Positions 21,681 through 54,673 of a stretch of DNA of 64,000 nt are shown in pieces. Under the pieces are notes generated by a model that worked only from the letters and a program-made list of their open reading frames with translations, was not told where the DNA came from and did not search any database. This stretch comes from Synechococcus sp. HK05. Its GTDB lineage: Bacteria > Cyanobacteriota > Cyanobacteriia > PCC-6307 > Cyanobiaceae. Made by a program: the position numbers and the translations under genes. Positions within the stretch are counted from its first letter, which is position 1. Each line of letters begins with the position of its first letter. The stretch spans positions 257,069-321,068 of the forward strand of contig NZ_JAHRXJ010000002.1 in NCBI RefSeq assembly GCF_019104765.1, given 5' to 3'.

Positions 21681-23060
21681 TTGATCTCGCCACCGGCCCC
21701 CTCTGCCTCCCCCTCGTTGGTCTCTGCGGCGTTGCTCCAGCCGTTGCGCCGCTTCTGGCCGCTGGCGGCCGGTTTGGGCGGTGGTGTGATCCTGTTGGAG
21801 AGCAGCCGCGGCACCCTCTCCTCGCTGATCAGCCTCAGTGCTGCAGCCGCTGGACTGTGGCTGCTCAGCGGTCGCTTACGGCCATCTGGCCGGGCCCTGC
21901 CCACCAGCGTGGAGGGATGGCTCGAGCGTTGCCAGGCCGTGTTGGAGAGTTTTGAGCGGCTCGAGCTGGAGAGCGATCCGCTGGCGCAGCAGCAGCGCCG
22001 GGACCAGCTGGAGCAGTGGCGTGAGCGCCAGGCCGACCCCCACCTGCACTTGGCGCTCGTGGGCAGCGGTGGCTGGAGCGAGGCGCTGCAGGTGCAGCTG
22101 CTCCAGCACTGCCCTTCGCCGGTGCCCCTGCGGGTGCTGCGCAGTCAGCCCCTCCCTCCGGCCAGTGCGCAGTGGCAGTGGCCCGAGGCGTTCCGCCGCT
22201 GCGATCTGGTGGTGTATCGCCTGGCCCTGCCGCTGTCGGCGGCGGACCTGCGTTGGCTCGAGGCGTTGCCCCAGGGCCAGCAGGTGCTGCTGTTGGTGGA
22301 TCGGCCGGCTGGCGATTGGGGGCTGGCCTTGCATCAGCTCCAGCGCCAGCTCCCCAGCCACCTCAATGAGCAGTGCTGGCCCTGGTCGCCCGAGGCGATC
22401 GACACCTGCGCCCGTGATCTGCAACCACTCGCCGCTGCCGTGGCGGCTCTGGGCCCGGAGCGGTTGCGGCAGACCCAGCAGCGTTGTTTGGAAGACCTGC
22501 ACAGCAGCTGGCAGGTGGCGCTGGAAACGCTGCGGCGCCGCCATTGGCAGCAGCTGGTGCAGCGCACCCAGTGGACAGTGGCCGCCGGGGTGGTGGTCGC
22601 CCCGCTTCCGAGCCTGGATCTGCTGGTGCTCGCTGCGGCCAATGGCCTGATGCTGCAGGAGATGGCTCGGTTGTGGGATTGCCCCTGGTCGCTGGAGCAA
22701 CTGCAGGCCGCCGCGTTGCATCTGGCCAAGGCCTGTTTGGCCTTGGGGGTGGTGGAGTGGAGCAGCCAGGCCTTGGCTGCTCTCGTGAAGTTGCACGGAG
22801 CCACCTGGCTGGTGGGTGGCGCCCTGCAGGCCCTCAGCGCTGCCTATCTCACCCGTGTGGTGGGGCGCGCCATGGCCGACTACATGGCCCTGGCGGCCGG
22901 GGTGCCGGAGGCCGAGTTGGAGCGGCTGTTGCAGCAGCAGGCGCCGGTGTTGGTGGCCCGAGCAGCCGAGGAGGAAAAACTCGATTGGACAGGTTTCCTC
23001 CAACAGGCGCAGCAGTGGCTGCAACAGAGCGGCACCCAAGCAACTCACACAACTTCATGA
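21681..23060 (+). CDS. DUF697 membrane protein with degenerate GTPase-like region
   Basis: A 459-aa protein. A hydrophobic hairpin at about residues 24-63 is followed by a soluble region where a GTPase G domain would sit. The P-loop position reads LALVGSGGWSEAL (about 124-136) without the Lys-Ser/Thr needed for nucleotide binding. The C-terminal part (about 300-410) matches DUF697, with membrane segments in VVVAPLPSLDLLVLAAANGLMLQE. The start is a TTG and is uncertain. The stop codon lies within a perfect inverted repeat that precedes psbA. It is divergent from the CDF gene. Function unknown. Confidence 0.75.
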   Translation: MISPPAPSASPSLVSAALLQPLRRFWPLAAGLGGGVILLESSRGTLSSLISLSAAAAGLWLLSGRLRPSGRALPTSVEGWLERCQAVLESFERLELESDPLAQQQRRDQLEQWRERQADPHLHLALVGSGGWSEALQVQLLQHCPSPVPLRVLRSQPLPPASAQWQWPEAFRRCDLVVYRLALPLSAADLRWLEALPQGQQVLLLVDRPAGDWGLALHQLQRQLPSHLNEQCWPWSPEAIDTCARDLQPLAAAVAALGPERLRQTQQRCLEDLHSSWQVALETLRRRHWQQLVQRTQWTVAAGVVVAPLPSLDLLVLAAANGLMLQEMARLWDCPWSLEQLQAAALHLAKACLALGVVEWSSQALAALVKLHGATWLVGGALQALSAAYLTRVVGRAMADYMALAAGVPEAELERLLQQQAPVLVARAAEEEKLDWTGFLQQAQQWLQQSGTQATHTTS

Positions 23061-23100
23061 AGGCTTCATGAACTGCTTCATGAAGTTGTGTGAGTTGCTT
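23038..23100. repeat. perfect 25-bp inverted repeat with three TTCATGAA palindromes
   Basis: The arms at 23038-23062 and 23076-23100 are exact reverse complements over 25 bases, with a 13-base loop. TTCATGAA, itself a palindrome, occurs at 23054, 23065 and 23077, that is, at 11- and 12-bp steps or about one helical turn. The left arm includes the stop codon of the DUF697 gene. No long T-run follows directly, though TTTTT occurs about 10 bases downstream. It may be a terminator for the upstream gene, an operator for psbA, or both. Confidence 0.85.
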
Positions 23101-23152
23101 TGAACTTAATTTTTGCTTCCGGGAATCTTTTTCTGAGCTCCGTAGCGTGGCC

Positions 23153-23170
23153 GTGCCACATCTGTGGCAC
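23153..23170 (+). promoter_or_regulatory. hairpin in the presumed psbA leader
   Basis: GTGCCACA and TGTGGCAC face each other with two bases between, 34 bases before the psbA start codon. If transcribed it would form a compact hairpin in the 5' leader. Cyanobacterial psbA mRNAs are known for leader-based control of stability and translation, so this is a plausible element. Transcription start and -10/-35 boxes could not be fixed in the 104 bp between the long inverted repeat and the gene. Confidence 0.5.
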
Positions 23171-23204
23171 ACGCTCTCTTCGGCTCGTAAGAGTCAGCTG
23201 ATTC

Positions 23205-24281
23205 ATGACCACTGCCCTTCGCAGCGGCCGCTCCAGCTCCTGGTCACAATTCTGTGAGTGGGTCACCAGCACCGACAACCGCATTTATGTGGGTTGGTTC
23301 GGTGTGCTGATGATTCCCTGCCTGCTGTCGGCCACCATCTGTTTCATCGTTGCCTTCATCGCCGCTCCGCCGGTGGACATCGATGGCATTCGTGAGCCCG
23401 TTGCCGGCTCGTTCATCTACGGCAACAACATCATTTCCGGCGCTGTGATCCCCAGCAGCAATGCCATCGGCCTGCACTTCTATCCCATCTGGGAAGCGGC
23501 TTCTCTCGATGAGTGGCTGTACAACGGCGGCCCCTACCAGCTGGTGGTGTTCCACTTCCTGCTGGGCATCTCCTGCTACATGGGTCGTCAGTGGGAGCTC
23601 TCCTACCGCCTGGGCATGCGCCCCTGGATCTGTGTGGCCTACAGCGCTCCGCTGTCGGCTGCCTTTGCGGTGTTCCTGATCTATCCCTTCGGTCAGGGCT
23701 CCTTCTCCGATGGCATGCCCCTCGGCATCAGCGGCACCTTCAATTTCATGTTGGTGTTCCAGGCTGAGCACAACATCCTGATGCACCCGTTCCACATGCT
23801 GGGTGTGGCCGGTGTGTTCGGCGGCAGCCTGTTCTCCGCCATGCATGGTTCGCTGGTGACCTCCTCCCTGGTGCGTGAAACCACCGAAACGGAGAGCCAG
23901 AACTACGGCTACAAGTTCGGCCAAGAGGAAGAGACCTACAACATCGTGGCTGCCCACGGTTACTTCGGTCGCCTGATCTTCCAATACGCCAGCTTCAACA
24001 ACAGCCGCAGCCTGCATTTCTTCCTGGGTGCCTGGCCTGTGGTGGGCATCTGGTTCACCTCCATGGGCGTGAGCACCATGGCGTTCAACCTGAACGGCTT
24101 CAACTTCAACCAGTCAGTCCTGGATTCCCAGGGCAAGGTGGTCAACACCTGGGCTGACGTGCTCAACCGCGCCAACCTGGGCATGGAAGTGATGCACGAG
24201 CGCAACGCTCACAACTTCCCGCTGGATCTGGCTGCCACCCAGTCGATCCCCGTGGCTCTCACCGCTCCGGCGATCGGTTGA
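23205..24281 (+). CDS. psbA: photosystem II reaction-centre protein D1
   Basis: A 358-aa D1 protein that binds P680 chlorophylls, pheophytin, QB and the Mn cluster in thylakoid photosystem II. Sequence is near-universal from residue 20 onward. The residue that separates standard and high-light isoforms is Gln here (Gln129 in this numbering, equivalent to position 130), so this is the D1:1-type copy. The N-terminus is one residue shorter than in the beta-cyanobacterial proteins I remember. The C-terminal extension after the mature Ala is present ([17 protein letters not shown]), as needed for CtpA processing. Other psbA copies are expected elsewhere in the genome. Confidence 0.98.
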
Positions 24282-52678: not shown

Positions 52679-54673
52679 ATGTCTGAGGCCCAGACCAGCC
52701 CCGCTGCCTCCACCACGATCGAATCGGTGCTGCAGGAGCAGCGGGTGTTTGAGCCGCCGGCCGCGTTGGCGGCCGGTGCCGCGATCGGGTCGCTGGAGGC
52801 CTACCGACAGGTGGCCGCGCAGGCTCAGCAGGACCCGGATCAGTTCTGGGGCGAGGCCGCCCGGCGTGAGTTGCACTGGTTCGAACCGTTTCACACGGTG
52901 CTCGATTGGAGCAATCCCCCGTTTGCGCGTTGGTTTGAAGGCGGCACCACCAACCTCAGCTACAACTGCCTCGATCGCCATCTCGAGGGGCCCCGCGCCG
53001 ACAAGACAGCGCTGATCTGGGAAGGAGAACCCGGCGATACCCGCACCTTCACCTACCGGCAGCTGCACGCCGAGGTGTGCAAGGCGGCCAATGCGCTCAA
53101 GGCGCTCGGCATCGGCAAGGGCGATCTGGTGGCGCTTTACATGCCGATGGTGCCGGAGGCGGCGATCGCCATGCTCGCCTGCGCCCGCATCGGTGCGCCC
53201 CATTCCGTGGTGTTCGGTGGGTTTTCGGCTGACGCCCTGCGTGATCGCCTGATCGATGGCGAGGCCAAGGCGGTGATCACCGCCGATGGCGGCTTCCGCA
53301 AGGACAAGCCAGTGCCGCTCAAGCCCGCCGTGGATGAGGCCCTCGGCAGCAACGGTGGTGCGCCGAGCGTTGAGCACGTGCTGGTGGTGAAGCGCATCGA
53401 GAGCGATTGCCCGATGCAGACCGGCCGCGACCACTGGTGGCACGACGTGGTGGACGCCCAGAGCGCCGACTGCCCCGCTGCGCCCATGGCGAGTGAAGAC
53501 CGGCTGTTCGTGCTCTACACCTCAGGGTCTACGGGCAAACCCAAAGGGGTGGTGCACACCACTGCTGGTTACAACCTCTGGGCCCATCTCACCTTCCAGT
53601 GGATTTTTGATCTCAAGGAGAACGACATCCACTGGTGCACCGCCGATGTGGGCTGGATCACGGGGCACAGCTACATCGTCTACGGCCCGTTGTCGAACGG
53701 CGCCACCACGGTGATGTACGAGGGTGCGCCGCGCCCCAGCAAGCCCGGTGCCTTCTGGGAGGTAATCCAGAAGCACAAGTGCACGATCTTTTACACCGCC
53801 CCCACGGCGATCCGCGCCTTCATGAAGAGCGGCCGCGAGGTGCCGGACCAATACGACATGAGTTCGCTGCGCATCCTCGGCACCGTGGGTGAGCCGATCA
53901 ACCCCGAGGCCTGGATCTGGTATCGCGATGTGATCGGCGGCAACCGCTGCCCGATCGTGGATACCTGGTGGCAGACCGAAACCGGCGGCGTGATGATCAG
54001 CCCCCTTCCGGGCGCCACCCCCACCAAGCCCGGATCCGCCACCCTACCGTTGCCTGGCATCCAGGCCGACATCGTCGACCACGACGGCAACTCCCAGCCC
54101 GCTGATCAGGGGGGCTACCTCGCGATCCGCCGTCCCTGGCCAGGAATGATGCGCACCGTGCACGGTGACCCCGATCGCTTCCGCAAGAGCTACTGGGAGG
54201 AGATTCGCCCCGCCGATGGCTCCTGGCTTTACTTCGCCGGCGATGGTGCTCGCCGTGACAGCGATGGCTACTTCTGGGTGATGGGCCGCGTGGACGACGT
54301 GATCAACGTGAGCGGCCACCGCCTCGGCACGATGGAGATCGAGAGCGCCCTGGTGAGCCATCCGGCCGTGGCCGAAGCGGCCGTGGTGGGCCGGCCTGAT
54401 GAGCTCAAGGGTGAAGGGATTGTGGCTTTTGTGACCCTGGAGGCCGGCCGCAGCGGAGACGACGCCCTGATCGCTGACCTGCGCGGCCATGTGGGCAAGG
54501 AGATCGGGCCGATCGCACGCCCCGATGTGATCAAGTTCAGCGATGCCCTGCCGAAAACCCGCAGTGGCAAGATCATGCGCCGCATTCTGCGTTCGTTGGC
54601 TGCGGGCCAGGAGGTGAGCGGCGACACCTCCACCCTTGAGGATCGCTCCGTGCTCGACGCACTGCGCGTCTGA
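52679..54673 (+). CDS. acs: acetyl-CoA synthetase
   Basis: A 664-aa AMP-forming ligase that makes acetyl-CoA from acetate. The adenylation motif [15 protein letters not shown], the WWQTETGG box and the C-terminal [11 protein letters not shown] with the acylated Lys are all present, so control by Lys acetylation is likely. An ATG 24 bp further upstream could also start the protein. It abuts the convergent DUF1350 gene with no spacing (TGA followed directly by TCA). Confidence 0.96.

Follow-up and report, generated by a model that had tools for sequence, protein, structure and literature searches.

A predicted three-site operator array before the DUF697-linked psbA gene of Synechococcus sp. HK05 and related picocyanobacteria

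The window analysed here, meaning the whole 64,000-nucleotide stretch of DNA (G000:C2:257069-321068), lies within the 2.53-Mb genome of Synechococcus sp. HK05. It carries a gene for a DUF697 protein followed on the same strand by psbA. At the end of the DUF697 gene and after it lie a perfect inverted repeat, three copies of the octamer TTCATGAA, an A/T-rich block, a −10-like hexamer and a small second inverted repeat (Table 1). The psbA transcription start would lie near position 23155, and the A/T-rich block is a possible upstream promoter element. At the presumed psbA start, relatives carry GCCGCATCTGCGGC in place of the window's GTGCCACATCTGTGGCAC, a change that resembles a compensated hairpin in the leader.

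Table 1. Features of the DUF697-psbA locus (window positions) and of the related psbD loci (locus and genome handles).
Feature	Position	Strand	Remark
DUF697 protein gene (PF05128)	21681-23060	+	upstream neighbour; start codon uncertain
Left arm, perfect inverted repeat	23038-23062	+	25 nt
Site 1, TTCATGAA	23054-23061	.	contains the DUF697 TGA; kept in relatives
Site 2, TTCATGAA	23065-23072	.	11 bp after site 1
Right arm, perfect inverted repeat	23076-23100	+	25 nt
Site 3, TTCATGAA	23077-23084	.	12 bp after site 2
A/T-rich block GAACTTAATTTTTGCTTC	23102-23119	+	well kept only within the window's genus, in most members
−10-like hexamer TAGCGT	23143-23148	+	58 nt after site 3
Inverted repeat GTGCCACATCTGTGGCAC	23153-23170	+	small, in the presumed psbA leader; from the sequence and the alignment of relatives
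psbA, D1 with Gln at the 130-type position (D1:1-like)	23205-24281	+	presumed target
psbD leaders with TTCATGRW-N2-KTTAC	L316, L323-L326, L340, L342, L209/L339, L330, L331, L333-L336, L338	reverse	
psbD neighbourhoods with an OmpR-type regulator gene and rpaB	G000:C11:619016-628323; G134 near 2689631; G216 near 2190100		

The arms of the large inverted repeat are exact over 25 bases, as the original prediction had stated; they are 100% complementary, with 13 nt between them. This is the longest perfect inverted repeat in the 64-kb window (gap of at most 20), where the runner-up has 14 bp; in 20 first-order Markov simulations of the window, perfect inverted repeats did not exceed 13 bp. For the claim that the stem is far longer than a normal terminator stem in this genome, the comparison covered the repeats within the window and a single terminator-like site downstream of psbA (8 pairs). 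The RNA fold of 23030-23125 showed −42.9 kcal/mol with z = −7.09, and 0 of 200 shuffles were equally stable. The DUF697 stop codon does lie inside the palindrome (TGA at 23058-23060). The predicted position just before psbA was correct, but the distance of 105 bp was not: 104 bases were counted to the ATG.

The three internal sites at 11- and 12-bp steps were likewise found where predicted, with TTCATGAA starting at 23054, 23065 and 23077. The window contains 4 copies of TTCATGAA against 0.44 expected, the fourth being at 53819, inside a long open frame. Each array site extends to the palindrome CTTCATGAAG.

The conservation of the three sites was assessed in 95 psbA upstream regions, all distinct and collected for their likeness to the window, with identical regions counted once and L027, L256 and L257 left out for want of a psbA match. 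An array was called at 20 or more of the 24 core positions, with gaps of 3 + 4 or 3 + 3. The array TTCATGAA-N3-TTCATGAA-N3/4-TTCATGAA stands before DUF697-linked psbA in 59 of the 95 regions, from four picocyanobacterial genera; because likeness to the window or to the pattern partly guided the sampling, such proportions are not population frequencies. The gaps are 3 and 4 in 47 of the 59 arrays and 3 and 3 in the other 12, and DUF697 adjoins the array in every case (59/59). The DUF697-psbA gene order is widely retained in relatives. The array is not universal, since 33 of 92 DUF697-linked psbA regions lack it; in genus g6, several regions carry a pair of sites spaced 13 bp apart, and no site is present in several genera. 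Absence from close relatives had been named as evidence against the element, and the TTCATGAA cluster at 11/12-bp steps is kept before the psbA of relatives. Between the window's genus and the other groups, identity over the 24 positions of the core is 90%. The left half of site 3 is altered in 25/59 arrays and its right half in 5/59.

The perfect 25-bp palindrome did not hold up as a unit. Among the 95 regions it was found in the window genome only, and the pairing between sites showed no covariation. The nearest relative found, whose D1 protein is 100% identical, has TTCATGAATCCTTCATGAAGTGCTTCATGAA at this place and repeats of at most 10 bp. The palindrome and the triple site are two different things, and the long palindrome is a local addition. 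Approximately 12-13 of its 25 bp would be explained by the array itself (AACTTCATGAAG ... CTTCATGAAGTT), which leaves the outer dozen as the unusual part. Perfect repeats longer than 14 bp occur in 2 of the 95 regions, the window (25) and G005 (27). G005, which belongs to another genus, carries a perfect palindrome, its arms 27 bp long, at the same DUF697-psbA place (G005:C1; L065/L225/L289), in different letters and round two TTCATGAA sites, and this palindrome is independent of that in the window. Its left arm is closer to relatives in 8 of 12 comparisons (up to 24/27, vs up to 20 for the right arm), its right arm in 3, with one tie; these scores make it likely that one arm was copied from the other. 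The arms of the window palindrome match relatives at 13-17/25 (left) and 17-19/25 (right), scores that do not settle a direction. The 25-bp palindrome is probably a recent extension by template switching between self-complementary sites, and a function of its own would not be required.

The register between the array and the psbA promoter is the strongest result of this analysis. A TA[AG]NNT hexamer lies exactly 58 nt past the end of site 3 in 49 of the 59 arrays, and in those 49 no second TA[AG]NNT occurs 40-75 nt after site 3. The remaining 10 arrays have TACNCT or TCATNT at the same 58-nt offset, hexamers that were noticed only after looking at that offset. The spacer between site 3 and the hexamer is poorly conserved between the window's genus and the others (mean identity 31%, minimum 17%). 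Between hexamer and ATG, the leader measures anything from 48 to 102 nt; relative to the DUF697 stop, the array is offset by −18 to +81. Since the 58-nt distance is fixed and the offset from the DUF697 stop is variable, the array keeps its register to the psbA promoter, not to DUF697. The alignments support a fixed distance to the promoter, as sites of a regulator should have.

In a profile search that scored the best 150 candidates per genome, the psbA locus came up with E ≤ 1.2e-5 in 22 of 25 congeners, where no place elsewhere did better than 0.0178. All 14 marine-type g5/g34/g35 genomes tested gave the locus too, against 0.0114 for the best place elsewhere. The three negative congeners, G227, G275 and G218, are assemblies of 270-470 contigs. 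The same search of five other genomes, with the same number of candidates, gave nothing below 0.04. No regulon of arrays was detected: the exact two-site pattern gave none elsewhere in the window's own genome, and the profile, over the best 150 candidates of each genome, gave no better than E = 0.0114 away from psbA. The relaxed exact pattern gave 45 loci in genome contigs, 20 of them picocyanobacterial. All 20 have psbA and/or DUF697 in the fetched stretch, and the 25 others (three other cyanobacteria) gave no psbA or DUF697 match. The relaxed pattern also matched three viral contigs; none had a psbA or DUF697 match, and carriage of the array by phages was rejected. The phage matches listed (20 of 40 records) cover query positions 335-401, which are psbA coding DNA.

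Within a genome, the array marks one psbA copy. In six congeners with several copies, it stands before 6 of 32, one per genome and always the DUF697-linked Gln-130 copy. The expectation of arrays before other psbA copies was not borne out, as they are absent from all 26 other copies of these congeners (21 Glu-130 and 5 divergent Gln-130), which score 11-15/24. In eight marine-type genomes the best psbA copy has the array (8/8); their 16 other copies all lack it, scoring at most 16, and three of these hold a single TTCATGAA. Among 113 distinct psbA copies with a readable residue, a sample biased toward the array, the array goes with Gln in 34 and Glu in 2, and its absence with Glu in 55 and Gln in 22. 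A strict Gln-130 rule is broken by L216 and L108, which have Glu at the 130-type position. In both, psbA lies beside DUF697 and the array and has a D1:1-like start, perhaps through gene conversion. As a separate observation, contigs C1, C8, C11, C13 and C14 of the window's own genome break within psbA- or psbD-like genes, as expected if near-identical copies collapsed in assembly.

In five small-genome relatives (L066, L067, L069, L070 and L071), DUF697 is present, no psbA lies in the fetched stretch, and no array follows DUF697. The five regions before psbA in L218-L222, also from small-genome relatives, hold no array either, and L068 has the DUF697-psbA pair with the array absent. The small-genome relatives that lack the array are presumably Prochlorococcus.

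A conserved RNA hairpin was set aside, as no site pair showed covariation: for hairpins 1-3, 1-2 and 2-3 (three named structures, 30 sequences), paired cells and covariation were not above those of shuffles. Flank permutation with the run-length measure gave p = 0.002-0.02 for sites 1-2 and 0.005-0.08 for sites 2-3, a signal counted as weak because the sequences are related. It gave nothing for sites 1-3 by this measure and mostly nothing by the five-position measure. No known RNA family was found at the array: the Rfam search of the window gave tRNA only, and microRNA matches were far below gathering scores and are chance matches to the long stem. PhotoRC-I RNA (RF01716) is, in the available excerpt of PMC2864571, a conserved element linked to cyanobacterial psbA, like the array, but it is an RNA structure, unlike the array. 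The window scored below its gathering threshold, with no match in 22800-23300 at E up to 10. Among the 14 loci given, PhotoRC-I was above threshold at L194 and L199, which are marine Glu-130 psbA loci, and not at the array-bearing loci or at L004, where another psbA copy of the own genome begins.

The own genome has 10 copies of the palindrome CTTCATGAAG. Two belong to the array, one lies in the leader of psbD, and the remaining 7 fall within open frames at least 111 codons long. A look for clusters before other light-regulated genes had also been suggested. No further cluster was found in the own genome by the exact two-site pattern or among the best 150 profile candidates; a single related site stands before one psbD copy. 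Fifteen genomes, from three genera, have this leader site or a near form of it, 8-11 nt upstream of the ATG. The reverse strand reads TTCATGRW-N2-KTTAC in 16 of 16 leaders from the 15 genomes, the leaders having been chosen for this site. In five marine-type genomes the psbC-followed psbD copy lacks the site, and for the site-bearing psbD of G273 the fetched stretch contains no start of psbC; we infer that the site-bearing psbD is the monocistronic copy in every genome. In three genomes, this psbD lies approximately 2 kb from an OmpR-type regulator gene and approximately 9 kb from rpaB. Many marine Glu-130 psbA promoters (L193-L208) have an octamer TTNNNNAA (TTCATRAA in some) 26 nt before a KTTACANT box. 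TTCATRAA as a fixed octamer of these promoters was not used, since only some copies hold it.

The conservation of the sites, the 58-nt register, the single locus and the lack of hairpin covariation indicate that this element is most likely an operator array and not a terminator. On this sequence evidence, a three-site operator array of the DUF697-linked, usually D1:1-type, psbA promoter is predicted with good confidence, and many freshwater and marine Synechococcus-type cyanobacteria share it; D1:1 is the everyday D1. A DNA-binding protein would sit on about the same helix face at all three sites, whose centres fall at about −97, −86 and −74 from the presumed start, and would control the promoter from upstream. 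Given the published repression of D1:1 psbA at noon in marine Synechococcus, the binder would most likely activate this gene in moderate light, and strong light or UV would remove or silence it.

Regarding the binder, a regulator other than RpaB is a serious candidate, with a chance approaching even. It could be a dimer on each CTTCATGAAG, dedicated to this promoter and perhaps to psbD. The extension of every site to this palindrome, the confinement to one locus per genome (best 150 candidates per genome) and the mismatch with the RpaB element described below favor it, and the genome encodes 15 OmpR-type DNA-binding domains as well as other regulator families. On the other hand, it comes without a candidate gene, and a symmetric dimer does not predict the unequal retention of the two halves of site 3. 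An OmpR-type direct-repeat reading would fit the sites as well as a dimer on each palindrome does.

RpaB itself, an OmpR-family protein, is the likeliest single binder, though a tentative choice, with TTCATGAA read as a variant half-site of its HLR1 element. In the available excerpt of PMC13421787, the RpaB-bound HLR1 is KTTACAWW-N2-KTTACAWW, and RpaB is a positive regulator of psbA1 in PCC 7942 and PCC 6803, where a site at about −66 to −45 goes with activation and one over the start site with repression. As far as this excerpt describes it, HLR1 resembles the array in having octamer repeats near photosystem gene promoters, upstream on the low-light D1 gene. The array differs in that TTCATGAA is not KTTACAWW, the octamers are three, the gaps are 3 and 3/4 rather than 2, and it would lie farther upstream, at about −101 to −71 relative to the presumed start, beyond the −66 to −45 zone. 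The two-octamer HLR1 consensus reached at best 10/16 positions in 22991-23205, and the array was rejected as HLR1 proper on this and on the 2-nt gap. RpaB is a candidate because the psbD leader reads TTCATGRW-N2-KTTAC in the HLR1 layout of octamer-N2-octamer, with one KTTAC half; its first octamer is off consensus. Both sites would follow the RpaB position rule, the one lying upstream of a low-light gene and the other close to the start of a high-light gene. The RpaB family NF045944 is present in the own genome (L396, 395 bits, cut-off 330; second protein L400, 353.7) and also in the array-less G010 (L376). As 15 OmpR-type domains were counted in the own genome, in a count of the OmpR type only, other OmpR members are also candidates.

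It is improbable that the element is a terminator or 3′-end hairpin of the DUF697 transcript, with a stem that ends or protects the mRNA and shields psbA from read-through. The stem resembles an intrinsic terminator in being long and downstream of a stop codon. It is very stable in the window genome and directly follows the DUF697 stop, TTTTT lies 10 bases after it, and G005 has its independent long palindrome at the same place. However, no T-run directly adjoins the stem, and the stem is not conserved: a long one is present in 2/95 regions only, the others having at most 14 bp. Its place is tied to the hexamer of the next promoter and varies relative to the DUF697 stop. Neither the absence of covariation nor that of an array after DUF697 in the five small-genome relatives without an adjoining psbA fits a terminator. 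The terminator scan admits loops of 3-8 only and is therefore no test of the 25-bp stem. As RNA, the very stable hairpin of the window genome may still affect the DUF697 mRNA. That octamers and stem are both functionless, the self-complementary octamers merely breeding palindromes by template switching, is very improbable: this would explain the long arms, and the G005 left arm matches relatives better in 8/12 as if the right were a copy, but the right arm is better in 3/12 with one tie, the direction in the window is unclear, and the conserved triple, the 58-nt register and the one-locus place are left unexplained.

The operator array bears on the exchange of D1:1 for D1:2, which excerpts of PMC3441193 and PMC7393227 give as a main light-stress response of Synechococcus. 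In WH7803, D1:1 psbA is repressed at noon and the D1:2 genes show the opposite; in Prochlorococcus, the D1:1-like psbA follows the pattern of D1:2 (PMC3441193, excerpt). In low-light cells, the monocistronic psbD responds to high light and UV with strong induction (PMC7393227, excerpt). No DNA signal marking the D1:1 gene was found in the open-licence literature searched, nor was the array found described there as a cis element, although its general kind is known. We speculate, with some hesitation, that this picocyanobacterial element separates D1:1 from D1:2: one regulator that reads TTCATGAA-type octamers would activate D1:1 psbA through three upstream sites and repress the monocistronic psbD through the leader site, and its release in strong light would swap the photosystem II core. 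If so, Prochlorococcus, without the linkage and the array, would express its D1:1-like psbA like a D1:2 gene, which matches the excerpt of PMC3441193. With a short element that belongs to a single gene, the D1:1/D1:2 exchange becomes open to testing. The array also illustrates how long perfect palindromes may grow out of short operator ones.
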